Shown piece after piece: positions 42,755-56,213 of a DNA stretch of 64,000 bases. The notes beneath the pieces are model-generated. The model worked only from the letters and a program-made list of their open reading frames with translations. It ran no database searches and was not told the origin of the DNA. The DNA lies in the NCBI GenBank assembly GCA_017999985.1, contig JAGNKU010000007.1, forward strand, positions 186,001-250,000. The letters are read 5' to 3'. The DNA comes from Phycisphaerae bacterium (GTDB lineage Bacteria > Planctomycetota > Phycisphaerae > UBA1845 > Fen-1342). A program made the position numbers and the translations under genes. Within the stretch, counting starts at the first letter, position 1; every line of letters starts with the position of its first letter.

Positions 42755-43102
42755 GATAATCGCCTCCGGGACGTTCGAATGTAACATCCTATAAATAAGC
42801 ACTTTGCGCGTCAGATCGCGCGCCGCATTGCTGGGGTTCGTAATCTGGCCGTCGGCGGTGACTGTCCGGGAGCCTTTTCGGGCATCGCACGTTCGCCACG
42901 TCCCAGTTACTGTACACGCTATTGAACGTCCCAGAACGCCATCCGTCAATCCCACAAGGGTTTGGAACACGGCCGCGGCGGGAGTATAATGCCCAACTTG
43001 TGTTTGCCGCGGCGGCAGGGCGGCCGGGTGCGGCACGGGCCACGACAGTATCGGCACCGAATCAGGAGGACCGGTAGGTCTCGGGACGGAGGTACGCTTC
43101 GT
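42755..43102. other. 348-bp divergent regulatory spacer
   Basis: It lies between divergent tpiA and the 3D-domain gene. Apart from the TATAAT promoter (42962-42990) for the plus-strand gene and an AT-rich stretch at 42786-42800 that may drive tpiA, I see no gene. A ribosome-site-like GGACGGAGG stands at 43084-43092. Confidence 0.55.
42962..42990 (+). promoter_or_regulatory. Strong sigma-70-type promoter
   Basis: TTGGAA at 42962-42967, a 17-base spacer, then a perfect TATAAT at 42985-42990. The transcript would begin near 42997 with a leader of about 105 bases before the ATG of the 3D-domain gene. Confidence 0.65.
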
Positions 43103-43666
43103 ATGGTGTCTGCTTTCCATGCCCTCACGGGGTTAGCGGGTCTTGTGTGCAGCACGATCCTCACGCTGGGTTTCATCAGCGCGCCCGTAACGGCGTCCCC
43201 TGATGATCAATCCGCGCAGGCGGCCGTCGCCGCCGAGGCCGAGCCCGTCGCGTTGGACTCAATAAACGAGGAGGACGAAGGGCTGGGCACCTATGAGGCA
43301 GGCGAGCTCCAGGCAACATTGGTCGCCGATGGCCAGAAGTCTTCGAATCGCCCCCGTACGATCCGCCGCGTGCTCCGGGTGACCGCCTATAACGACCGCG
43401 GCACGACGGCAGCCGGCACACAGTCCGGAGTCGGCCAGTGTGCGGCGCCGGCCGATGTGCCGTTTGGGTCGACGATCTATATCCCGGCGTTGAAGCGAAC
43501 GCTAGTCGTCACGGATCGGACCCACCGCCGGTTCCGTCACAACACGGTGGACATCTTCATGCCGGGCAAGCAGCAGTGCCGGAACTTCGGTCGCCAGTAC
43601 CTCGAATGCGTGATCACGCCGCCCGACGCGCCGGTGAAGTACGGCGAGCTGGCCAAACGCCTCTAA
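43103..43666 (+). CDS. Secreted 3D-domain protein
   Basis: The ATG at 43103 gives 187 residues. A signal peptide with predicted cleavage after TAS (near residue 32) is followed by an acidic 40-residue linker. The C-terminal 85 residues have the three Asp of the 3D domain: ADVPFG, VTDRTHRR and TVDIFMPG, with GTTAAGTQSG ahead. The domain is shared by MltA, YocH and related cell-wall lytic transglycosylases, so it may cleave or bind peptidoglycan. It has an upstream near-consensus promoter and stands alone. Confidence 0.82.
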   Translation: MVSAFHALTGLAGLVCSTILTLGFISAPVTASPDDQSAQAAVAAEAEPVALDSINEEDEGLGTYEAGELQATLVADGQKSSNRPRTIRRVLRVTAYNDRGTTAAGTQSGVGQCAAPADVPFGSTIYIPALKRTLVVTDRTHRRFRHNTVDIFMPGKQQCRNFGRQYLECVITPPDAPVKYGELAKRL

Positions 43667-43750: not shown

Positions 43751-46141
43751 GTGCGCCCCACCGCGGACACACGGATGGCAAGCCGAGCGGTACATTCCTG
43801 CGCGCAGCGCGTAGCCACGGAAGCGCTGGCACACGAAGAGCTTAGCGACGCCGAACGCGACCAGGCGGAGCAGCATGTCGCGCAGTGTGCCAGTTGCCGC
43901 GCGCTGTACCGGCAATTGACCGTCAACCGCCTCCCGAGAATCCGGAACTACACCATTCTGACCGAACTGGGGCGCGGCGGCTTTGGCATCGTCTACAAGG
44001 CCGTCCACCACGGCAAGGGCCGCTGCGAGGCGCTGAAGCTCCTGTTCGGCCGCACCGCACAACGGACCGCGTATTTCGAAAACGAGGTCCGGCTGGTCGC
44101 GCAACTACGGCATCCGAACATTGCGACGCTCTACGACGCCAGCCTGCACACCACCCCGTTGTACTACACGATGGAGTTCGTGCAGGGTGAGCACCTCGAC
44201 GATTACTTCCGGTCCCACGAGGTTTCGCTGGAGGAACGGATCGAGCTCGTCAAGACCGTGGCGATGGCCGTCGGGTACGCCCACCGGCAGGGCGTGATCC
44301 ACCGCGACCTCAAACCACAGAACATCCTGGTTGATCCGCAGGGGCAGCCCCGGATCGTGGACTTCGGCATCGCCAAGCGGCTGGGGCTGGATGCCAGCCA
44401 CCCGCCGGCGGGAGACGATCCGCAGCTCCGGGAGGGTGCGCTGGGCACGTTCGGGTATATCGCCCCGGAGCAGCTCGCCGGGCAGGAAGTGGACGCGCGT
44501 GCCGACATCTACGGCCTGGGGGCGCTGCTCTTTCACGTTATCACCGGCCAGCCGGCGCGCTTCGCGACCGAGGTCGAGCGCCTGACGGAGATCCTGCACG
44601 AGCGGCAAGTCAGCCGGGCTGACGATCTCGCCGCGATCATCGCGTGCTGCGTCCGGCCGGCGCCTGAAGAGCGCTACGCGAACTGCGACGCCCTGGTCGC
44701 CGATCTGAACAACTACCTGGCGGGGCGGGTCATCATGGCCCACGCCAACTCAACCCCCGGCTATCGCATCGCGCGGGTCGCCGCCCTGGTCCTGCGCAAC
44801 TATCCGCGGACCGTGCAGGTCGCGGCGTTGCTGTTTGTCGCCGTGGTGTTGGTGGCCCTCTGTCGCATCCAGGGCGCGGGCGGGTTCGTGCCAGCGGGCG
44901 CGGCGGCCACACCGACGGTTCTGGTCGGGTTCACCACGGAAACCCAGGACGCGTTGCAGGGAGGCGCTCTGGGCGCAGAACTGCCCGCGCTGGACCCCGC
45001 GAACCCGAAGAGCTATCGCGTGCTGTACGGCCGGGTGCTGGAGAAGCTCGCCGAGGCACACCCCACGGTGGTGGTCTGGGACTATTTTTTCCCCATGTGC
45101 CAACCGGAGTTTGATCCAGCATTCACGCGCGGGTTGCGCGCTGTTCAGGCGCCCGTAATCGTCGGTGCCAAGACGATGGACGCGAACGCCGAGCCAGCCC
45201 TGTGTCCCGACATTCGCGCTGCGGTGCACGGGTGGGGACTCCTGGCGAGCACGCCGCCGAAACCGGGCGAATCGAACGTGTACCCGGTGCTCGCAGTACA
45301 ACGCGGGCTCAATCCGCTCATACCGTCGCTGGCGATAGCGGGTTTCGCTGCCGCCCGTCATCCGGATTGCAGTCCGGACGTGCGCGTGGCGGGCAGCCAG
45401 CTCGAAGTCCGGTATCGGCGCCGGCAGGTACCGCCGGAGGGGCTGCGATTCCCGTACCGCTCGGATTTCATCCCCTTCATCCAGCGCCAGGAGGTTCTAC
45501 CCGGGTCCACCGAGCTGGAACCGGGCGACGGGTGCTACTTCGGCGGATTCGGCGCGCGCCGCCTCCCCGAATGGGCCCGGAACGCGATCCGCATGGAGGA
45601 CGTGCTGACCGGCGACGCGTCGTGGTTGCGGGAGAAATTCGCCGGCCGCGCGGTCCTGATCGGGCAACTGATCCCCGGCATTGATCAACACGAAACCGCG
45701 TCGGGCGAAGCGGCCTTCGGGTGTCAGATTCAGGCGATGGTCCTGGCGGACCTGCTCGCGGGTGCGCTGAGCTATCGCTTTGCCCACGAGGAACTGGTCC
45801 TGCTGATTCTCTGCGCGTGTGTCGGCGGCGCGCTGCTCGCTGGCCTCGTCCCAGTCCAGCCCGGCCCTTCCCTGCGGCTGTGGATCGGCTTGGCCGCCGC
45901 GCTGGTCATGGGGGCCGCCGCGACGGCGATGTTCCTGACGCAGTCGCCAGGGACGCCTGGGATGAACCGGATCGGGCTCGGGATTTGCGCCGCGCTGGCC
46001 GGCGCAGGCACCACCCTGATCGTCAAGCTGCTGCACCAGCGTCAGTTGCGGTTGACGCCCGGCATCGTGTGGGTAGCGGACAATACCGGCGCATCGACGA
46101 CGGTCCTGGCGTCATCGGCGGCGTCCCTCCCGAATGCATAG
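43751..46141 (+). CDS. Ser/Thr protein kinase with N-terminal zinc finger and CHASE2 sensor
   Basis: The frame from GTG 43751 gives 796 residues (ATG 43775 is an alternative). Residues 42-49 carry H-x3-C-x2-C, the zinc motif of anti-sigma (ZAS) domains. Residues 67-335 are an active Hanks-type kinase: GRGGFG loop, Lys96 in EALK, HRDLKPQN with Asp186, DFG at 204-206 and APE. A membrane helix (about 357-375) precedes a periplasmic CHASE2 domain of about 265 residues, recognisable by DPANPKSYR, VVWDYFFP and FAGRAVLIG. About three more helices follow, then a short tail. It should sense an external signal and phosphorylate cytosolic partners, plausibly through the FHA and sigma proteins nearby. 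Confidence 0.9.
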   Translation: MRPTADTRMASRAVHSCAQRVATEALAHEELSDAERDQAEQHVAQCASCRALYRQLTVNRLPRIRNYTILTELGRGGFGIVYKAVHHGKGRCEALKLLFGRTAQRTAYFENEVRLVAQLRHPNIATLYDASLHTTPLYYTMEFVQGEHLDDYFRSHEVSLEERIELVKTVAMAVGYAHRQGVIHRDLKPQNILVDPQGQPRIVDFGIAKRLGLDASHPPAGDDPQLREGALGTFGYIAPEQLAGQEVDARADIYGLGALLFHVITGQPARFATEVERLTEILHERQVSRADDLAAIIACCVRPAPEERYANCDALVADLNNYLAGRVIMAHANSTPGYRIARVAALVLRNYPRTVQVAALLFVAVVLVALCRIQGAGGFVPAGAAATPTVLVGFTTETQDALQGGALGAELPALDPANPKSYRVLYGRVLEKLAEAHPTVVVWDYFFPMCQPEFDPAFTRGLRAVQAPVIVGAKTMDANAEPALCPDIRAAVHGWGLLASTPPKPGESNVYPVLAVQRGLNPLIPSLAIAGFAAARHPDCSPDVRVAGSQLEVRYRRRQVPPEGLRFPYRSDFIPFIQRQEVLPGSTELEPGDGCYFGGFGARRLPEWARNAIRMEDVLTGDASWLREKFAGRAVLIGQLIPGIDQHETASGEAAFGCQIQAMVLADLLAGALSYRFAHEELVLLILCACVGGALLAGLVPVQPGPSLRLWIGLAAALVMGAAATAMFLTQSPGTPGMNRIGLGICAALAGAGTTLIVKLLHQRQLRLTPGIVWVADNTGASTTVLASSAASLPNA

Positions 46142-46164
46142 CTTACGGCTGCTCCCCCTGCCAC

Positions 46165-46195
46165 GAACCGACCGCGGCGATCGCCGGGTCGGTTC
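46165..46195 (+). terminator. Long hairpin downstream of kinase gene
   Basis: GAACCGACC pairs with GGTCGGTTC (9 bp). Inside is the 10-bp palindrome GGCGATCGCC, separated by GC and G bulges. It lies 24 bases after the kinase stop, with no T-tract. Confidence 0.55.
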
Positions 46196-46249
46196 ATCAA
46201 TGCCGGTGACTCACCGGGTGCGTGCGCCCCGTGAGTGCGACCGCGAATC

Positions 46250-46378
46250 TCAAGCTACCCAGCGCGACCCGGTGGACCAGACTACCAGCAGCACCAGGAG
46301 TGTCGCCGACACGGCCCACAGGCCCTGAGCGACATAGACGCTCCACTGAACCTCAGTGGCGGTGTAAGAGGGTGGCAT
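46250..46378 (-). CDS. Possible 42-residue membrane peptide
   Basis: The ATG at 46378 has GGAGGG 9 bases ahead on the minus strand. It encodes 42 residues: a short polar start (MPPSYTATEVQW), a single hydrophobic helix of about 20 residues (VSATLLVLLVV core), and a basic WVA end. This is a plausible tiny inner-membrane protein within the kinase-FHA spacer. No similarity is known to me; it may be spurious. Confidence 0.4.
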   Translation of the reverse strand: MPPSYTATEVQWSVYVAQGLWAVSATLLVLLVVWSTGSRWVA

Positions 46379-46856
46379 GTTGCCTAGCCCTCCACCCCAA
46401 GTGTGACGAGTTGGGAAACCAGCGAGATGAACTCGAAAAACCACGAAAAGAACATTACATACCTCTCTTTCGTGCGTTTCTCGCTCCGGAGGGCCTGCCC
46501 TCCGCTTCCAATCCCGACCGACGAGACGAATATCTCAATCGTCGGCAGCTCTGAGCTGTGCTGGACCGGCGTATTGATGGCTATCGACCGATTCCACCCC
46601 CAGGGCTAAATTAGCTGGGCCCCGAACGAGAGTTTTTTTGCAGCCGCGCAGAATCCGCGCGAGACGTGCCATTTCGGTATCGCTCCCGGACCAATACCCC
46701 ACCACCAGCCTTGTTGTCGAATATCACCCCCCTGCCGGCGAATACCCGTCCGGCGGGCGTGGCGTCCGAACCGTCCAGGTTCGGGTCGCCGGCTCGTCGG
46801 CCGAGCGTGGTAGAATCCCGTCGCAGTTCGCAGGCGACGCAGTACGAGGACCGAGA

Positions 46857-48443
46857 ATGTTTGCCCGCTGGCTTTTTGTCCGACTGCACGCGGCCGAGAA
46901 GGCCCTCCGGGACGGGCGGCTCGACGACGCGTACGCCGCGGCGGCCAAGCCGGAGCATCGCGCCGACCCGCGCTGGCAGCAACTGCTCGACGAGCTTGTC
47001 AAGCCGCTGGTGGCCCGCGCGCGTCTGGCACGTCAGGGTGGCCGGTACGACGCCGCGCTGGCCGACCTCGACAAGGTCACAGCCCTCGGCCGCGGCGGGC
47101 CTGACGTGGACGTCTTGCGGCAGGAAATTGCGGTGGAGCTGCGGCAGCACGTGGAACGGGACGCTGACCGGCGGGCGGCGGCCGGGCGTGTCGCCGAGCA
47201 CCTGGATGCCGGCCGGCTGGAGACGGGCCGGCTCAACGTGCAGCGTGTGGACGATCCGCGGCAGCGCGCGGAACTGGCCGAAGAGCTGGACATCCGCGTG
47301 CAGCGCAGCGCGCAACTGCTCCAGCAGGCAACGGCCGCGCTCGAGCGTGACGACGTGCTGGCCGCCGTACGCTACTGGCACGAGGCCTGTGAACGGCACG
47401 GACGCACGCGGGATTCCGATACGTTCGCCGCGCGGCTCGGCGCGGCGTGCCGAAAGGCGATCGAGACGTGGGTGGACGACGGGCGGATGGACTGCCTGGT
47501 TGCGGCGCGCAGCGGGCTCGGCGCCTTGTTGCCGATGGAGCCGACGCTGGCTGAGTCCGACCGGGTCGTAGGGTTGTGCATGCGGGCCGTGAGCCAGTTC
47601 TCAGCCGCGGACTACGCCGGCCTGCGGCAGACGCTGCTGCGTCTGAAGGCGGCGCGCGGCAGGGTGTCGTGGGTCGAGGGCGCGCTCAAGGCGCTGGCCG
47701 GCATCGTGGAAGGCCAGGATGCGCTGCTCGCCTCTCCGCTGGGGCTGTATGTCACGACGGCGGAACCGGCGGCGCGGCGTGCGAGCCCGACCGGCCACAC
47801 GGACACGGCCGCCGGTGCGATCGCGGCGCCGGACGCGCTGCGGATCGACCGGCCTCTGTTGATGCTGGTGGATGGCGGCGGAAGCTGCCTGCTGGTGCAC
47901 GAGGACCGTGTCCGCATTGGCCGCGCGGGCAGCTCGATGACGGTGGAAGTGCCGGTGCCGGGCGACCTGCAATCGCACCACGCCGACGTCGTGCGCCATG
48001 GCGAGGACTATTTCCTGACGGCGTACGGGCCGGTGGAAGTCAATCATCGGCGGGTGACGCATACGCTGCTGCGGGATGGCGATCGCATCGCGCTGGGCGG
48101 GCAGGCGAAGATGGTGTTCTGCAAGCCCAGCGCGAAGAGCGAATCGGCGGTGTTGCGCCTCTCGCACCGCTGCCGGTTGCCGCAGGATGTGGGCGACGTG
48201 GTGCTGTTCCGGCAGACCTGCCTGATCGGCCCCACGGAAAGCTGCCACCTGCGCACGCACGACAGCCAGGGCCAGGTCGTGCTGTTCGAGCGGGGCGGCG
48301 GGCTGCACGCGCGGCCGACCGCGGAACCGGCCTGGCAGAGCAGCCCGTCGCGGCCGGTGCGCACGGGCGAGACGATGGAGTTCGGTGAGCTGCGTCTGAC
48401 GGTCAAGCCGTACGAGCTACGGGGCTGGAGCGCGGAAGCCTAG
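46857..48443 (+). CDS. FHA-domain protein with helical N-terminal region
   Basis: The ATG at 46857 has GAGG about 8 bases ahead and gives 528 residues. Residues 1-290 are helical and Arg/Ala-rich with TPR-like spacing (GRYDAALADLDKV). Residues 335-425 form an FHA-type fold: VRIGRAGSSM, the SHHADVV block (in place of the usual SxxHA), then an Asp/Asn turn and LRDGDRIALG. A second, degenerate FHA-like unit is in the last 90 residues. FHA domains bind phosphothreonine peptides, so it is the natural reader for the adjacent kinases. A 55-base gap separates it from the second kinase, suggesting one operon. Confidence 0.82.
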   Translation: MFARWLFVRLHAAEKALRDGRLDDAYAAAAKPEHRADPRWQQLLDELVKPLVARARLARQGGRYDAALADLDKVTALGRGGPDVDVLRQEIAVELRQHVERDADRRAAAGRVAEHLDAGRLETGRLNVQRVDDPRQRAELAEELDIRVQRSAQLLQQATAALERDDVLAAVRYWHEACERHGRTRDSDTFAARLGAACRKAIETWVDDGRMDCLVAARSGLGALLPMEPTLAESDRVVGLCMRAVSQFSAADYAGLRQTLLRLKAARGRVSWVEGALKALAGIVEGQDALLASPLGLYVTTAEPAARRASPTGHTDTAAGAIAAPDALRIDRPLLMLVDGGGSCLLVHEDRVRIGRAGSSMTVEVPVPGDLQSHHADVVRHGEDYFLTAYGPVEVNHRRVTHTLLRDGDRIALGGQAKMVFCKPSAKSESAVLRLSHRCRLPQDVGDVVLFRQTCLIGPTESCHLRTHDSQGQVVLFERGGGLHARPTAEPAWQSSPSRPVRTGETMEFGELRLTVKPYELRGWSAEA

Positions 48444-48498
48444 GGACGCGCGATGAGCCGGCCCGGTGCCAGAAGCCGGGTCGAGCGGAGGAAGAGAC

Positions 48499-50778
48499 GT
48501 GGCGTACACGTTCAAGCATGGTGATCGGCCGCTGGAAGGCGTCACAGTGCAGCGTGCGATCGGCCGCGGCGGGTTCGGCGAGGTGTATTACGCGCTGGCC
48601 GACTCGGGGAAGCAGGTCGCGTTGAAGTACCTGCGCGAGAACCCGGAGATCGAGCTGCGTGGCATCGCCCACGTGATGAACCTGAAAAGCCCGCACCTGA
48701 TCACGATCTACGATGTGAAGCGAAACCCGGCCGGCGAGCCGTTCGTCATCATGGAATATGTGAGCGGCCCGTCGCTGCGTGAGCTGCTCATGGCGGAGCC
48801 GGGGGGGTTCAGCGTCCAGAAGGCCGCGTTCTTCCTGAGTGGGATCGCGAAGGGCCTGAGCTACCTGCATGAGCGCGGCATCGTACACCGCGACCTGAAG
48901 CCGGCGAACATATTCTACGACGACGGCTACGTGAAGATCGGCGACTACGGGCTCAGCAAGCACATGTCCGTGTCGCAGCACAGCGGCCAGACGGTCAGCG
49001 TCGGCACGGTGCACTACATGGCGCCGGAGATCGGCTCGGGGAGCTACACGAAGGCCATCGATATCTACGCGCTCGGCGTGATCCTGTACGAGATGCTGAC
49101 CGGGCGGCTGCCCTACAGTGGCGCGAGCATGGCCGAGGTGCTGATGCGGCACTTGCGCGATCGGCCGGACCTCAGCGGCATACCGCAGCCGTTTGCCGGG
49201 GTCATCGCCAAAGCGCTCGCCAAGGACCCGCAGGAGCGCTACCAGGACGCGGACGAGATGCTCGCGGCGATCATGGAATCCGGCGACGTCGGCCGCAGCA
49301 TCGACTCGTTCGATGCCACCAGTCTGTCGCGGGTGCCGCGCGCGCCGGAAGCCAGCGACCAGGATCCGACGCTGACGTCGCCGCACCGGCCGTCGCCGCC
49401 GCCGCTGCCCTCGATGGACGTGCGGGCGCCGCTGCCGGGGCAACCGCTGCCCGAGCGCCTGCAGCGGAAGTTGGACCGGCTGAACGAGAAGCTGGCCCGC
49501 AAGGCGGCGAAGCTGGAGCAGAAGCTGGGGCCGCGGCGTGGTGGGGTTCCGATCCCAGCCGCGCCGGCAGCGACCCCGAAGGTCAATCGGCGCGGGCAGA
49601 TGTTCGTGCTCCTGGCGGTAGCGGCCGCCATTTCGGTGGCCTTCGGGTCGCTGGCCGGTTCGGGGCGCAGCCCGGAGACATGGGCCGTGTGCATCGCGCT
49701 GTTCATCATCGGCGGCACGGTCGGCCCGCTGATCGCGCACCTGCGACTCCTCCGGAACTCGCCACTGCGGAACACGCTGCTCAGCCGGCTGGCGCATGCG
49801 AGCATGGCCGGGCTGTTGATGCTTCCGGCGTTCGGAATCGCAGCCGACGAACTGGACCACCGCTTTGCCGGCGACGTTTCTCAGTTGATCCTTGCGCCGA
49901 TCGTGGCGATCCTGCTCTGCGACTGGGGCAAGCGCATCGAAGCCGGGCGACGAGGCCGCGTGGACGGCTGGGCGGCCTTCTGGCCGGCACTGATCGGCTT
50001 TGTGTTGGCGCAGATCCTGGATCTTGAAAACTACGCCTGGGTGGCCGCCGGCATCTGCGCCGCGATCGCGCTGCTGACGCAGGCCGCGGCCAGCATGTGG
50101 CCGGCGGTAGCGACACCGACGCCTTTCGCGGTTCCCCCATTGCCGACCACGCCGCCGAAGAACGACGCCGCCGTTCAAGCGGTCGCGCCGCTGGCCGAGG
50201 CCGCGACATCGCTGGCCCAGGCAGCTGCCACGCAAGCGAGCAGTCCGCCGCCGCCGCCGGCCGAGCTCATCACCGCGAGCCAGCCTTCGTTCGTCGGGCG
50301 GACCGCGCACGCGGGGGTATCGTTTCTGGGCAAGGTGCTGCTGCTCATCGGGCTGGTCTGGGCGCTCGGGCAGGACCCGGCGCTGCACTATGCCCGCGAG
50401 TACGCCAACGAGGCGAGTGCGCACGGCGTCCGCGTGGACCGCGACATTCAGCAGTTGATCGACAGCGGTGTGCCCCGTGGGCTGCCGCTGATCCCGCTGG
50501 TGCTGGGCAGTCTGCTGCTCATGGCGGCCCGCCGCCGCGACGGCGTCCGACACTTCGTCCGCGGGGCGTGCGGCTACGGTCTGGTGTGCTTCGGTGCACT
50601 GAGTGCGATCCTGTGGGGCAGCCGCGGGCTACAAGGGCTGTTCGTCGCCGGGGACATGAGCGGGTGGGACGATCCGGAGTTCTGGGGTCCGATGCTGCTG
50701 ACGACCCTTGGCCTGGGCGTTGGGGCGCTGCTGCTGCTCTGGCCGGCGCAACGTGATAACAGGCCGATCGTGATCTAG
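48499..50778 (+). CDS. Ser/Thr protein kinase with multi-pass membrane domain
   Basis: The GTG at 48499 is preferred over one at 48466 because GGAGGAAGAG lies just ahead. The 759-residue protein has kinase blocks GRGGFGEVY, Lys43, HRDLKPAN with Asp132, and APE. The metal-binding motif is D149-Y-G instead of DFG, still compatible with activity. Residues 290-350 are a Pro-rich and then coiled-coil-like linker (LNEKLARKAAKLEQ). The C-terminal half has about ten hydrophobic segments with an Ala/Pro-rich loop between them. This polytopic sensor type has no obvious extracellular domain. It is 6 bases from the next gene. Confidence 0.9.
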   Translation: MAYTFKHGDRPLEGVTVQRAIGRGGFGEVYYALADSGKQVALKYLRENPEIELRGIAHVMNLKSPHLITIYDVKRNPAGEPFVIMEYVSGPSLRELLMAEPGGFSVQKAAFFLSGIAKGLSYLHERGIVHRDLKPANIFYDDGYVKIGDYGLSKHMSVSQHSGQTVSVGTVHYMAPEIGSGSYTKAIDIYALGVILYEMLTGRLPYSGASMAEVLMRHLRDRPDLSGIPQPFAGVIAKALAKDPQERYQDADEMLAAIMESGDVGRSIDSFDATSLSRVPRAPEASDQDPTLTSPHRPSPPPLPSMDVRAPLPGQPLPERLQRKLDRLNEKLARKAAKLEQKLGPRRGGVPIPAAPAATPKVNRRGQMFVLLAVAAAISVAFGSLAGSGRSPETWAVCIALFIIGGTVGPLIAHLRLLRNSPLRNTLLSRLAHASMAGLLMLPAFGIAADELDHRFAGDVSQLILAPIVAILLCDWGKRIEAGRRGRVDGWAAFWPALIGFVLAQILDLENYAWVAAGICAAIALLTQAAASMWPAVATPTPFAVPPLPTTPPKNDAAVQAVAPLAEAATSLAQAAATQASSPPPPPAELITASQPSFVGRTAHAGVSFLGKVLLLIGLVWALGQDPALHYAREYANEASAHGVRVDRDIQQLIDSGVPRGLPLIPLVLGSLLLMAARRRDGVRHFVRGACGYGLVCFGALSAILWGSRGLQGLFVAGDMSGWDDPEFWGPMLLTTLGLGVGALLLLWPAQRDNRPIVI

Positions 50779-50784
50779 CTGAGA

Positions 50785-51687
50785 GTGGCACACGTGGTGG
50801 AACAAGCTTTCGTGCCTAAGATCATGCTGCTTTTGCTGGGAGCGTTGGCGCTCGCCGGCGGCGTAGTGGCGATTATCGCCGTGGCGCGGCTGGCGATGCG
50901 CAAGCCTGTGGCCGGGGTGGTCACCGCAGTGGTGCTGCTCCTGGTGCTGGCCGCCGGCGCCGCGGCGGTGATGGTCGTGCGTGCGCCCGTGTACACAGCG
51001 GGACGAGCCTCTCGGCTCATGCCTGTCGCCGTCGAGGTACCGATGCCGCCGGCGCCGCCGGAAGCACCCCGACTCCAGCGGCCGCGCGCGGTCACAATCA
51101 CCCGGGGCGGAGTTGCCGACGAGCGCGGGCCCGAGTTCGTGACGATCGAGCTGGGCAACCTCGACATGTCGGAGATGCGCGCGGACCTCGATGAGCTGCG
51201 CGTTTCGGCGGGCGAGCAGGAGCTGCCGCCGCAGGCGACGGAGTCGGTGTCGAGGCTGGCGGAAGAGTCCATGCCCGAGCGGCTGTTCGAGTACTTCGAC
51301 CGCCTGGCCAAGGAAACGTCGCCGCCCGCCGAAGCGCTGCGGACACTGCGGACCGAGCTTAAGAAGCTCACTGGTTCCCAGCGGCGCGCGCTCGCCGCGA
51401 AGATAGCCGCTCAGCGTGACGCGATCGCGACCTATCGCCTCAAGGCCCTGAGCGACCTGGACGGCGACCCGCGGGACCCGGGGCACTACGGGGTCGAGGC
51501 CGAGCTGGAGCCCGACGCGATCTTGCGGCAGGCCGTGCAGGCGCGGGAAACGAGCCGGCGGGAACGGCCGAGGTTTACCCGGCTGTCCGCGCTCGGCACA
51601 TGCGGCGTGATCGTGGCAGCCGCCATCATCCTGAAGCTGGCGACACGGTGGAACCGCGCGACCGGCACTACCACCATCAAGGTCTAG
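50785..51687 (+). CDS. Membrane protein of unknown function in kinase operon
   Basis: The 300-residue protein starts at the GTG at 50785 (another GTG at 50794, and ATG at 50824). Two helices stand near residues 12-34 and 42-65. A Pro-rich stretch is followed by a helical domain of about 160 residues (RTELKKLTGSQRRALAAKIAAQRD), and a third helix lies at the C-terminus. It begins 6 bases after the kinase stop, so it is translated with it. Its role could be to modulate kinase activity; no homologous family is recognised. Confidence 0.68.
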   Translation: MAHVVEQAFVPKIMLLLLGALALAGGVVAIIAVARLAMRKPVAGVVTAVVLLLVLAAGAAAVMVVRAPVYTAGRASRLMPVAVEVPMPPAPPEAPRLQRPRAVTITRGGVADERGPEFVTIELGNLDMSEMRADLDELRVSAGEQELPPQATESVSRLAEESMPERLFEYFDRLAKETSPPAEALRTLRTELKKLTGSQRRALAAKIAAQRDAIATYRLKALSDLDGDPRDPGHYGVEAELEPDAILRQAVQARETSRRERPRFTRLSALGTCGVIVAAAIILKLATRWNRATGTTTIKV

Positions 51688-51797
51688 CACGGCGCCGCGC
51701 GGGGTCCGCGGAGCGCCCGCGGGTTGGCCGCCGAGCGCCCCGGCGGTATCCTGCCTGCGCGGCATGCGATCCGTGAGACCAAGGCAGGGCGCGAACG

Positions 51798-52697
51798 ATG
51801 GCCGGCGACGAAGCCGAGGCTTTCCTGATTGAAGCGGTGCGGCGCGGCGACCAGGTGGCCTGGCGCGCGGTGATCGAGCGCTACCAGGGGCGGATGCTCA
51901 GTTTTGCGCGGCGCATGCTCGCCGAGCGCAGTGAAGCCGAAGACCTCGTCCAGGAGACGTTTCTCGGCTTGCTGCGCAGCCTGCCGACTTACGACGCGAG
52001 CCGCGCGCTGGAAACCTACCTGTTCGCGATCCTGCGTAACAAGCTGCACGACTACCTGCGGCGGCGGCAGAAGGGCCAGCGCCAGAGCCTCGATCAACTG
52101 GAGATGGACGACGCCCCCGAGGCCTGGGTCGACGCCGACACGCCCAGCCGCTACCTGGCCAACCAGGAGAAACTGACCGCGCAGCGCGCGGCGCTTGTGG
52201 CGGGTCTGCGACAATGGGTGGAGCAGTGCACACAGCAGCGCCGCTTTCAGGATCTGATCGTCACCGAGATGCTCGTGGTGCTGGGGCTGCGGAACAAGGA
52301 GGTCGCGGCGGACCTGGAGCTGACCGAGCCGGCCGTCGCCGGCATCAAGTTCCGCGTGCTCGAGCAGTGGCGCAAGCTTGCGAGCGCCGCGCCGGGGGCG
52401 CAGGAATGGACCGAGGCCGACCTGGCGCTGGACAGCACGCTGGGGCGCATCTGGCGCGAAGAAGGCATCTCGTGTTTGAAACGCTCGACACTCGGGCGGT
52501 TCCTGCTGGGCACGCTGGATGAGGAATGGAACGAGTACATCGACTTTCACGTCCACCAGGCCGACTGCGACACGTGCAACGCCAACCTGGACGACCTGCG
52601 GAGCGAGGACGAACGCGACGCCGCTGCACACGAAAAGCTGCGTGAGCGGTGCTTTGCATCGAGCGTAGGATTCCTGTCACATTCCCCGGGGAAATGA
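51798..52697 (+). CDS. ECF sigma factor with C-terminal zinc-finger motif
   Basis: The 299-residue protein has region 2 (AEDLVQETFLGLLRSLPTYD) and region 4 (residues 150-195 with ELTEPAVAGIKFR as the recognition helix), separated by a 60-residue linker. The family is usually 170-200 residues. The extra 100 include a conserved-looking GISCLKRSTLGRFLLGTL helix and then H253-x3-C257-x2-C260, the zinc motif of anti-sigma factors. A sigma and a regulatory finger may thus be fused. It lies 110 bases after the membrane protein gene. It is a likely output of the kinase/FHA cluster. Confidence 0.88.
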   Translation: MAGDEAEAFLIEAVRRGDQVAWRAVIERYQGRMLSFARRMLAERSEAEDLVQETFLGLLRSLPTYDASRALETYLFAILRNKLHDYLRRRQKGQRQSLDQLEMDDAPEAWVDADTPSRYLANQEKLTAQRAALVAGLRQWVEQCTQQRRFQDLIVTEMLVVLGLRNKEVAADLELTEPAVAGIKFRVLEQWRKLASAAPGAQEWTEADLALDSTLGRIWREEGISCLKRSTLGRFLLGTLDEEWNEYIDFHVHQADCDTCNANLDDLRSEDERDAAAHEKLRERCFASSVGFLSHSPGK

Positions 52698-52703
52698 CGC
52701 GCG

Positions 52704-54899
52704 TCAGCGCCGCGCCTGCGTGGTGGCGGCCGATTCGAGCGGCGAGGCCGGAGCCGTTTCGGGCGGCGGCGTGATCTGCTGCGCCCGCTCGCGCAGCCGC
52801 ACCAGCTCCGTCAGCGCTTCCTCCGGCCACCCGCCGGGCGGGCAGCGCTCCAGCGCCGCCAGCATCGCCAGCGCCTGGCCGGCGCCGGCTGGCGTGAGCC
52901 GCATTTCGACCTCGGTCTTCGCCGCGTCCCACAGCGCCAGGCGCTCCGCGACCGGCAGGGCCTGCGCCAGCGCCGCGGCCACGGACTCGTCATAGCGCCC
53001 GCTGGCCAGCGCGCAGCGCAACAGATCGAGCGCCACCGGCCCGATGGCATTGGAGCCGACGGCGTGCAGGTCCGCGAGCGCCGCCACATAGGCGGCGACC
53101 GCTTCCGTAGGCTGGTCCAGGCGCACGTGCTGTCCGGCGAGCCGCGCCCGGATCAGCCCCAGTCGCCCGCGGTCAACCGGCTCGGTCTCCTGGGCCGCGG
53201 TGACGAGGCGCTGCAGAAGCTCGACGCGGCGCTGAATGTCCTGGGGGCTGGTCCCCGACAGACGCGCGATCCAGCGCTCGATGTCGTCGGCGGAACCCTT
53301 CGAGAGAATATCCAACACGCCACGCCACGCGGCCTGCCGGATCGTCTCGTCCGTCTCCAGCGGCGAGACAACGCGCTCCCAGAGGGCGCGGACCTGGCTC
53401 TCGCTGCCGCTGGAGCCCAGCAGGGCGAGTTTCTGAATCGCCGCCTTGCGCACGCCCGCATCCGGATCGCTCGTGGCTTCGGCAAGGGCGTCGGCGAACT
53501 GGGGGCTGTTGAGCGCTGCAATCCCACGGACGGCGGCCTGGCGCACGACAACCGCTTCCTGCCGGTCCAGGGCGGCAACGAAGGCAGGCCCGCAGCGCGG
53601 GTCCGCCACGTTCCCCATGGCCCACAAGACGCGCTCCCGCAGCGCGACCTGCGCGGTCTGGCTGCGTTCGAACACGCGCAGCAATGCCTCCACCACGACG
53701 TCTTCCTGGTCCTCGGCGAGTACGCCCCGCTCGGCGAGGCGGCCCAGCGCTGCGACGGCTTCCGTCACGCACTGTTCGTCACGCTGTTCGAGCTCGCTCA
53801 CCAGCGGACCGGTGGCCGACTCGGCGCCGACGTACCCCAGGCCGTTGAGCAGGGCCATGCGCACTTCGCGGGTGCGCGCCGCAGGGAGCATTTCGAGGAA
53901 CCGCGCGCTGTCATCCCGCTCGCGCAGGCTGGCGACGGTCTGCACCGCTGCCGCCTGCTCCCGGGAATCCGTGCTGCCCAGCAGATCTCGAATGCGATCC
54001 TGCAGCTCAGTGGGCAACGACTTGCCTTCGGCCAGGTGGAGCTGCGCGAAGCGCAGCCCGAGCAGCCGGATGGTCGTCGAAGCGTCCGCGAGGTAGCCGA
54101 CCAGCAGCGTGACGCGTTCGGTATCGGCCGCGCGCAGGAAGCTCGCCTCCAGCGCTTTCGCCAGGCGCGCCTCCATCGTGTCCAGTCGGCGGCGCATTTC
54201 ACGGTCCTTGCGGACCAGCCGCTCGATCTGCAGCTGCTGCCACACCTCGCGCGAGAGCGTGCGGCTGCCTTCCCACCAGGCGCGGGCCGCGGCCGCGTCC
54301 TCGCCGAAGTCCATGGCGGTCGCCTGCGCAAGGGCGCTGAGGGCCGCCTGTGCGAGCGTCGGGTCCGGGTCGGACAACACCGCGACCAGCCCGCCGATCG
54401 CCTCGCGCTCGGTCATCAAGCCCAGTGCCGAAATGGCCGCCAGCCGGGCCGGCCGCGTCTGGGTGCTGTCCAACGCCAGTTGCTGGAGGCGGGGAGTCAC
54501 GCCGTTGTCACGATAGCCCGCCAGCGCGCCCGCGGCGGCCTGTCGGACGGCGGGGTCGGCATCCGCGAGCATGTTGATAAGCGGATCGATGTACGCGGGG
54601 TCCAGGAACTCAGGCTGTTCCGCGAGGACCGTGGCGACCGCCACCTTGGCCGCCGCGTTCGGCCCGCTCAGTAGGGTGATCAGCCGCGGCGGGGTCTCGG
54701 ACCAGCGTTGGAGGAGCAATTCCCGCGCCCCCGTGCGGCGCACGTCCGGAGCGTTCTGACCCTCGATGAGGGCGAGCAGGCTGGCCAGACGCTCCTGGTT
54801 GCTGGTGGCGGGCCGGGTGGCCGGCTGCGGGGCGGGTTCCTGCGCGAAACCCGTCACGGCCGCAAGGACCAGGATGAGTCCGACTGCCGCTCGCCACAT
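52704..54899 (-). CDS. Secreted HEAT-repeat protein
   Basis: The ATG at 54899 gives a signal peptide ([17 protein letters not shown]). The 731-residue protein is almost entirely HEAT-like repeats of about 37 residues, for example [31 protein letters not shown] and [16 protein letters not shown], with a more irregular helical C-terminal quarter. It should form an elongated solenoid for protein binding in the periplasm. A long upstream frame is only intergenic. It converges on the sigma factor with 6 bases between stops. Confidence 0.8.
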
Positions 54900-55250
54900 G
54901 TCGATCACCGTCGGCGGTACGTCCGTTTGACAACGCAACGCTAGACCCGGCCTGCCGGCAGGCGTTAGGCGCCGCGCAGCCGATAATAGTTACACCCACA
55001 CGGAGGCCGGCCGCGGACCGGCGACGGATTATAACCCGATCCGGCGGGCGCACACCCCGCCATGAAGCATTATCTTCTTTTCTCCGATAGAATTGTGATC
55101 ACACGCTGCGGCTTGAACGAACGGTCGGCGGCGGCTATTGTATCCTCCGGCGTAGCGTCGCGCGGCCGGCTCCACGCGACGTGTCCCGGGACAGTGGAAA
55201 GACAGTGTGACCCAACGAGGGCCGTGCTCGACCTGGTGAAGGATCGCGCT
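54900..55250. other. 351-bp divergent spacer
   Basis: It separates divergent HEAT and PEP-CTERM genes. It holds the plus-strand promoter candidate at 55113-55141 and the palindrome GCCTGCCGGCAGGC at 54951-54964. A plus-strand ORF starting at 55062 has a consistent frame but no ribosome site and lies upstream of the signal peptide, so I treat it as leader. No gene is otherwise seen. Confidence 0.55.
55113..55141 (+). promoter_or_regulatory. Sigma-70-type promoter candidate for PEP-CTERM gene
   Basis: TTGAAC at 55113-55118, a 17-base spacer and TATTGT at 55136-55141. It would give a leader of about 100 bases before the ATG at 55251. Confidence 0.4.
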
Positions 55251-56213
55251 ATGAAACGCATCGCCTTGGGGCTGCTCGTGTTGTTCGCGGCGCAGGGTGC
55301 GGTCACCGCGTATGCCGGTTTCGTCGACAACATCTACCGGGGCTTGGAAATCCTGACCACGCCGCTCGGCGGGCCACTCAGCACGGCCAGCGACGGGACG
55401 GTGTTCAACGGTTCGCGCTCCGGCCGGGTGCGCATCGTGCCCAGCGGCATCGGCGAGGGTTACCAGCTCGAACTGGACCGGACGTTTGGAGTCGACTCCC
55501 GTGGGCGGGCCGAGACGTTGCACCTGGGCGGCGTGGCCGACCTGACGCTGAGCGGGCCGATTCAGATCACGGCCGGCTACAACGGCCGGGGCATGTTCCG
55601 CACGTACCGCGGCGAGTTCGGCGCGTCCAACCTGGGTTATCTCCTGCGGACCAAGACCGGCGCCCAGGATGCCACCATCGCGGGGACGTTCAACACGTCC
55701 ACCGCCTTCGAAGTCAACCCCCTCGGGTTCTACAACCTGGCGGTGGACATTTCCAACAGCAACGCGTCCTACGCGCTCGACGGCGTCGTCATTCGTGACG
55801 AACAGGACATGAACTTCAATGTCGGCCCGATCAACATCCAGGGCAACATCTACTACGACATGGTTCTCGCGCTGCTCAACAGCGCCGGCGTCGACACCTC
55901 GGACCTCGAGGAGCTTTTCCCGCGCTCCCCGATCGGCACCATCAACGAGGCCATCCAGGACGCGATTCAGCAACGCGACGTCGTCGCGGGCGTGTCGAGC
56001 GAAAACAGCCACGCCGCCCTGCTCGCCAGGGCCGTGATCGGCCAGGACGCCGGTGCCGCGGAGACACTCTTCGCGGACCTGGCAATCGCACCGTCCGTGA
56101 CCGCCACAGCCGATGCGGCGACCACGCCGGCGCTGGCCGTGCCTGAGCCCGGCGCGCTGCTGCTGCTGACGTTCGGCGCAGGCACCGTCTGGTACTGGCG
56201 CCGCCGCGGGTAA
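55251..56213 (+). CDS. PEP-CTERM exported protein
   Basis: The ATG at 55251 begins a signal peptide (cleavage near AYA, residue 22). The 320-residue product has a beta-rich body with RGMFRTYRG and NFNVGPINIQGNIYYD and an Asp/Glu-rich helical segment. It ends in a complete PEP-CTERM sorting tail: VPEPGALLLLTF, hydrophobic segment, then WRRRG. Exosortase cleaves such tails and links the protein to exopolysaccharide or the outer membrane. No exosortase is in this window. Confidence 0.87.
   Translation: MKRIALGLLVLFAAQGAVTAYAGFVDNIYRGLEILTTPLGGPLSTASDGTVFNGSRSGRVRIVPSGIGEGYQLELDRTFGVDSRGRAETLHLGGVADLTLSGPIQITAGYNGRGMFRTYRGEFGASNLGYLLRTKTGAQDATIAGTFNTSTAFEVNPLGFYNLAVDISNSNASYALDGVVIRDEQDMNFNVGPINIQGNIYYDMVLALLNSAGVDTSDLEELFPRSPIGTINEAIQDAIQQRDVVAGVSSENSHAALLARAVIGQDAGAAETLFADLAIAPSVTATADAATTPALAVPEPGALLLLTFGAGTVWYWRRRG

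Follow-up and report, generated by a model that had tools for sequence, protein, structure and literature searches.

Several described systems come close to the locus analyzed here. ECF52, ECF48 and ECF53 factors of Actinobacteria (SCO4117) are ECF sigma factors with a C-terminal zinc-finger anti-sigma-like fusion (PMC8999054, PMC5826349), and the sigma factor of our locus (SIG) resembles them in carrying a C-terminal fusion of this type. In those groups, however, the zinc finger continues into transmembrane helices and long extensions, whereas SIG has no hydrophobic segment by hydropathy, its zinc-type domain gave no zf-HC2 match, its ligand spacing is different and it is accompanied by an FHA-domain protein, a kinase and a separate membrane protein; SIG thus falls outside them. 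ECF43 lacks the DAED motif of sigma2.2, having uncharged residues there, and acquires the charge through phosphorylation (PMC8103513). SIG shares with ECF43 (EcfP-PknT) and ECF59 the location of an ECF gene beside a Ser/Thr kinase gene, but differs from ECF43 in its zinc-type tail and in retaining a DAED-type motif, which places it outside that group also. The class I ZAS anti-sigma factors ChrR, RslA and RsrA are, like the C-terminal domain (CTD) of SIG, helical, with a Cys/His zinc site (putative in the CTD), and are encoded next to an ECF factor. The CTD departs from them in its spacing (H-x5-C-x2-C versus H-x3-C-x2-C), in having no significant Pfam match and in being fused to the sigma factor. 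In the SigH-RshA and SigE-RseA systems a ZAS anti-sigma factor is also released by Ser/Thr phosphorylation, with PknB (PMC8999054); there the anti-sigma factor is a separate protein, whereas that of SIG would act in cis and the kinase is encoded inside the operon. Fused zinc-finger ECFs and kinase-linked ECFs are already known, and the SIG system joins both, with a variant finger and with FHA and membrane partners. No description of the FHA-K2-membrane-SIG module was found in the literature searched, most subscription papers lying outside the scope of that search.

SIG is encoded in a window of 64,000 nucleotides (the whole stretch of DNA that was analyzed) as the last of five genes on the same strand (Table 1). 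All five had been recognized in the earlier note, namely a kinase with Pkinase and CHASE2 domains (K1), the FHA protein, a second kinase (K2), the membrane protein and the ECF sigma factor. Two start codons were corrected: K1 probably begins at the ATG at 43775 (M9 being nearly invariant in orthologues) and FHA at the ATG at 46857.

Table 1. Features of the kinase-FHA-sigma locus, in positions of the window
Feature	Position	Strand	Evidence
K1: N-terminal zf-HC2 finger, Ser/Thr kinase, CHASE2 sensor	43775..46141	+	Pfam Pkinase 2.7e-45, CHASE2 3.5e-9, zf-HC2
K1 zinc finger C17/H42/C46/C49	43799..43897	+	ligand conservation among 23 orthologues
Promoter-like element GAATAT-N15-GAATAC, upstream of FHA	46719..46745	+	exact and one-mismatch counts versus shuffles
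FHA-domain protein, first gene of the conserved operon	46857..48443	+	Pfam FHA 3.8e-5 at 352-414; orthologues phylum-wide
K2: Ser/Thr kinase followed by about 8 hydrophobic segments	48466..50778	+	Pkinase 2e-51; catalytic residues; hydropathy
Membrane protein between K2 and SIG, 3 hydrophobic segments	50785..51687	+	positional family, divergent member
SIG: ECF sigma factor with fused C-terminal zinc-type domain	51798..52697	+	Sigma70_r2 4.7e-21; full-length orthologues; AF2 pLDDT 86.9
SIG sigma2-sigma4 core, residues 1-196	51798..52385	+	VIA matches; acidic motif E46-A47-E48-D49 intact
SIG C-terminal domain (CTD), C226-x24-H251-x5-C257-x2-C260, anti-sigma-like	52404..52697	+	invariant ligands; AF2 pLDDT 87; VIA RslA/ChrR

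The gene order FHA-K2-[membrane gene]-SIG was found throughout the order, in almost every region sampled from the class's other orders and in other classes. Full-length SIG orthologues are encoded by almost all genomes of the order and by some of those elsewhere in the class and phylum. A scan of the genome's contigs with SIG returned a single match, in region 2 only. Judged by its gene order, FHA-K2-membrane-SIG appears to be an old signalling operon of four genes that occurs in many of the phylum's families. The signalling unit proposed earlier, and the conservation of gene order by which it was to be checked, hold for these four genes; K1, on the other hand, is restricted to one family and often unlinked. 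In the window's family SIG is separated from FHA-K2 in about nine genomes, and the membrane gene is missing in several close relatives (gaps of about 100-190 bp). The membrane protein matched no Pfam family. In most modules outside the window's family, hydrophobic segments at its termini flank a large central part; many of the membrane proteins encoded between K2 and SIG are clearly homologous, the window's copy being divergent (26.8% identity to that of locus L089, E 8e-6). Tandem duplication of K2 inside the module was observed at three loci (L079, L089 and L106), and a second SIG-CTD paralogue lies beside a different large kinase gene at two others (L133 and L145, genomes G145 and G213). 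Convergent to SIG in the window is a gene for a HEAT-repeat protein (52704-54938), followed by one for a PEP-CTERM-type protein (55062-56213), and genes of both types also lie beside SIG at L079, L080 and L085.

SIG has the sigma2 and sigma4 domains of an ECF (group 4) factor (TIGR02937, 76 bits), and its AlphaFold model contains both, plus a separate helical C-terminal domain. The core matched SigW, SigmaE and AlgU in VIA (Z 14.8-13.4). Structural matches of full-length SIG spanned residues 2-204 only, and the CTD was therefore modelled alone. Its helix order fits a class I anti-sigma domain, with a three-helix zinc core and a fourth helix, and its top three VIA-align matches were RslA (Z 5.5, 62/62 residues) and ChrR (Z 3.7 and 3.6), all of them weak, with Z under 8. 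A Foldseek search with the CTD by itself yielded nothing convincing, no match having an E value below 8.

The claim that SIG itself contains a zinc-type domain resembling those of anti-sigma factors was borne out, its tail having an invariant C/H/C/C set: C226, H251, C257 and C260 were conserved in all complete sequences among 40 SIG orthologues, and in 58/58 CTDs across the phylum the invariant residues were W219, C226, H251, C257, C260, A262 and D266. The motif given for it in the earlier note, H253-x3-C257-x2-C260, had to be abandoned, since H253 is kept in only 3/40 orthologues, most having Asp or Glu there, and the true spacing is H-x5-C-x2-C. A zf-HC2 match was absent for SIG, and just 2/58 CTDs matched (best E 0.055, Pfam); the predicted zf-HC2 homology was thus found in K1 and not in SIG. 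Searches with the CTD against Pfam, NCBIfam and PDB sequences gave nothing convincing. In hhalign comparisons the CTD aligned with its ligands in register both with canonical zinc fingers of separate proteins (87%) and with the finger of K1 (57%), and relative to the canonical finger it has two extra residues between the His and the next Cys. The conserved ligands suggest that the CTD binds zinc.

Among the sampled genomes the CTD is fused to the sigma factor in 17 and is encoded by a separate gene in 34, in many of them directly downstream of sigma. Both were present in 51 of 294 phylum genomes; 51 of the 52 sigma-bearing genomes have the CTD, and every genome with a strong CTD match has the sigma factor. 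When the 17 fused genomes were left out, 34 had both genes, 1 had sigma only, 3 had the CTD only (weak matches) and 239 had neither (Fisher p≈6e-39 for co-occurrence of the separate genes, uncorrected for kinship of the genomes). The fused state requires at least three changes on the sigma tree, and in one family (f53) a genome with the fused protein has a relative in which the sigma and CTD genes are adjacent. If the domain is indeed anti-sigma-like in function, the natural occurrence of the pair as one protein, as neighbouring genes and as distant genes would be a useful case for studying how an anti-sigma domain is incorporated into its sigma factor. Several of the separate CTD proteins carry an N-terminal canonical zinc finger before the CTD (zf-HC2 1.9e-7 in the L178 protein). 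Since these proteins are encoded immediately after sigma, where an anti-sigma gene normally lies, they support the CTD as the restrainer. We infer that the CTD is an anti-sigma-like domain restraining the sigma factor, and a better candidate for this role than the finger of K1.

An alternative is that the CTD is not an inhibitor, acting instead as a metal or redox sensor or as an aid to RNA polymerase or DNA binding, with the kinase system modulating it indirectly. Its Cys and His ligands could sense metal or redox in the manner of CorE-type ECFs (PMC8103513), and a co-activator would be expected to stay with its sigma factor even after the two genes part, as the CTD does. The location downstream of sigma, the tandem zf-HC2 finger and the weak homology and fold match all favour a restraining partner, and we regard the alternative as rather unlikely.

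A promoter-like element, GAATAW-N15-GAATMC, with constant spacing, was found upstream of FHA. Of 44 modules, 10 have it exactly and a further 10 with a single mismatch (shuffles, 0.00 exact and 0.05 one-mismatch); these module counts are not independent, because the element was discovered by searching these very FHA-upstream regions for dyads, whereas the whole-genome counts are. No exact element was present upstream of K2 or SIG in the 44 modules. Within the window the copy listed in Table 1 is the sole match at ≤1 mismatch. With the reversed pattern as an imperfect control, the genome of the window contains 23 sites (5 exact and 18 one-mismatch) versus 2, and its family 76 versus 2, a few of the 76 being low-complexity repeats in one genome (G006). 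Sites were also in excess in families f6 (9 versus 0) and f8 (22 versus 0), while the SIG-positive family f4 showed little excess (13 versus 4). Three SIG-negative genomes (G028, G029 and G035) yielded 1 exact element versus 2 controls, numbers that are small. At the module head the element occurs only in families that lie close to the window in the sigma tree (f1, f6, f7 and f8). It was not found in the rest of the class or in other classes, and no conserved element of any kind was found in the class's other orders or in f52. The site alignment showed a purine favoured 7 bases past the second box. Two other candidates were set aside: dyads before SIG, for which shuffle maxima were high and part of the stretch is coding, and a CAAGC/ACGG dyad before FHA, which is located inside the gene. 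Since the element heads the SIG operon, SIG probably reads GAATAW-N15-GAATMC.

The element also stands before other genes, of envelope type. Reading of about 44 sites revealed recurring families downstream of it: FHA in three more genomes, and an S49 signal-peptide-peptidase-like protease (Pfam), an ABC ATPase (Pfam) and a secreted TPR-like protein in two genomes each. Five genomes of two families (L186, L245, L255, L266 and L276) also encode downstream of it a protein that is about 175 aa long, contains three FGG motifs and has no Pfam match, and four genomes (L190, L246, L268 and L271) a membrane protein (MSSGPVVVVNKGGFF...). FHA retains the element in genomes from whose module SIG has moved away (G006, G007, G010 and G015), as expected if FHA, K2 and the membrane protein were merely targets of SIG and the kinase exerted no control over it. 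Conservation of the FHA-K2-membrane-SIG order across classes goes beyond what is ordinarily expected of targets, and we consider this explanation improbable.

The catalytic residues of K2 (HRD, D-x-G and Lys) were conserved in 57/57 sequences. The FHA protein had been described as phosphothreonine-reading, and this stands for the window protein, which has all the pocket residues (R356, S373, H375 and N396), and for its family (Arg 14/17, Ser 15/17, His 16/17 and Asn 16/17). It does not extend further: beyond the order, all sampled genomes of the class (16/16) have another residue in place of the key Arg, and the phospho-binding residues are gone in several lineages, indicating that phospho-reading by FHA is not universal. 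Candidate phosphosites in SIG are the C-terminal SS motif and T231, a residue that the separate CTD proteins do not share.

We propose, at about even confidence, that FHA-K2-membrane-SIG is an autoregulated envelope signalling operon in which the CTD restrains SIG and K2, FHA and the membrane protein relieve the restraint. SIG, a sigma2-sigma4 ECF factor, would be held inactive by its own CTD, the counterpart of which in other lineages is a separate soluble protein, often encoded next to sigma. K2, the membrane protein and FHA would sense an envelope signal and, as a group, act on the sigma-CTD pair, probably via phosphorylation and/or FHA docking, so that the sigma factor is freed. The freed SIG would then transcribe its own operon and envelope-type genes from GAATAW-N15-GAATMC promoters. 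K2 is the probable switch, and the signal is probably envelope-type. A broader proposal, which we put forward tentatively, is that of a phylum-wide transmembrane signalling system that holds an ECF sigma factor in check through a variant zinc anti-sigma domain (C-x24-H-x5-C-x2-C), acting either in cis or as a protein apart, with a Ser/Thr kinase/FHA/membrane complex encoded in the operon releasing this domain. A single operon would then combine control by an anti-sigma domain with control by a kinase, two ECF mechanisms that are generally treated as distinct. If the proposed control is true, Ser/Thr kinase/FHA signalling is joined to zinc-domain control of an ECF factor, and the system is a widespread regulator of an envelope-type response in a phylum that has been little studied, with a predicted promoter and candidate target genes that make it directly testable.

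K2 might instead activate SIG directly by phosphorylating its sigma2 region, as PknT does with EcfP (ECF43). A kinase and an ECF gene share one operon here, as in ECF43 and ECF59 (PMC8103513), yet the acidic DAED-type motif that ECF43 lacks (here D/E46, A47, E48 and D49) is intact in 36 SIG orthologues, and activation of this type is very unlikely.

Residues 26-50 of K1 match zf-HC2 (23.9 bits, above the Pfam cut-off); the whole-protein search gave 20.0 bits, just below the cut-off of 22.2. The motif reported for it, H42-x3-C46-x2-C49, was confirmed: among 23 orthologues C17 and C49 are kept in 23/23 and H42 and C46 in 19/23, two ligands being lost in the other 4. The finger thus appears, from the profile match and its conserved ligands, weak but genuine. 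K1 orthologues were found only in the window's own family, adjoining FHA in about nine genomes and located elsewhere in about ten, so that about half are unlinked from FHA-K2-SIG. The gap between K1 and FHA is 715 bp and contains the promoter-like element, which puts K1 outside the predicted transcription unit of the FHA operon. K1 is apparently a later, lineage-specific neighbour of that operon. Despite the genuine finger and the genomes in which K1 adjoins FHA, the earlier idea that its zinc finger sequesters the sigma factor until phosphorylation frees it is most improbable, and its distribution rules out K1 as a common restrainer: SIG-CTD occurs phylum-wide without K1, which besides its confinement to one family is often unlinked, has lost ligands and lies across the gap from the operon.

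A 3D-domain-like gene lies upstream of K1 (42992-43666) and, together with TPI, SecG and YicC on the other strand, forms the conserved neighbourhood of K1 in several relatives, as in the window. The same genome encodes a second kinase-type protein with an N-terminal zf-HC2 (25.5 bits; L125, G000:C14, near 110500), so that K1 is not alone in fusing a zinc finger to a kinase.
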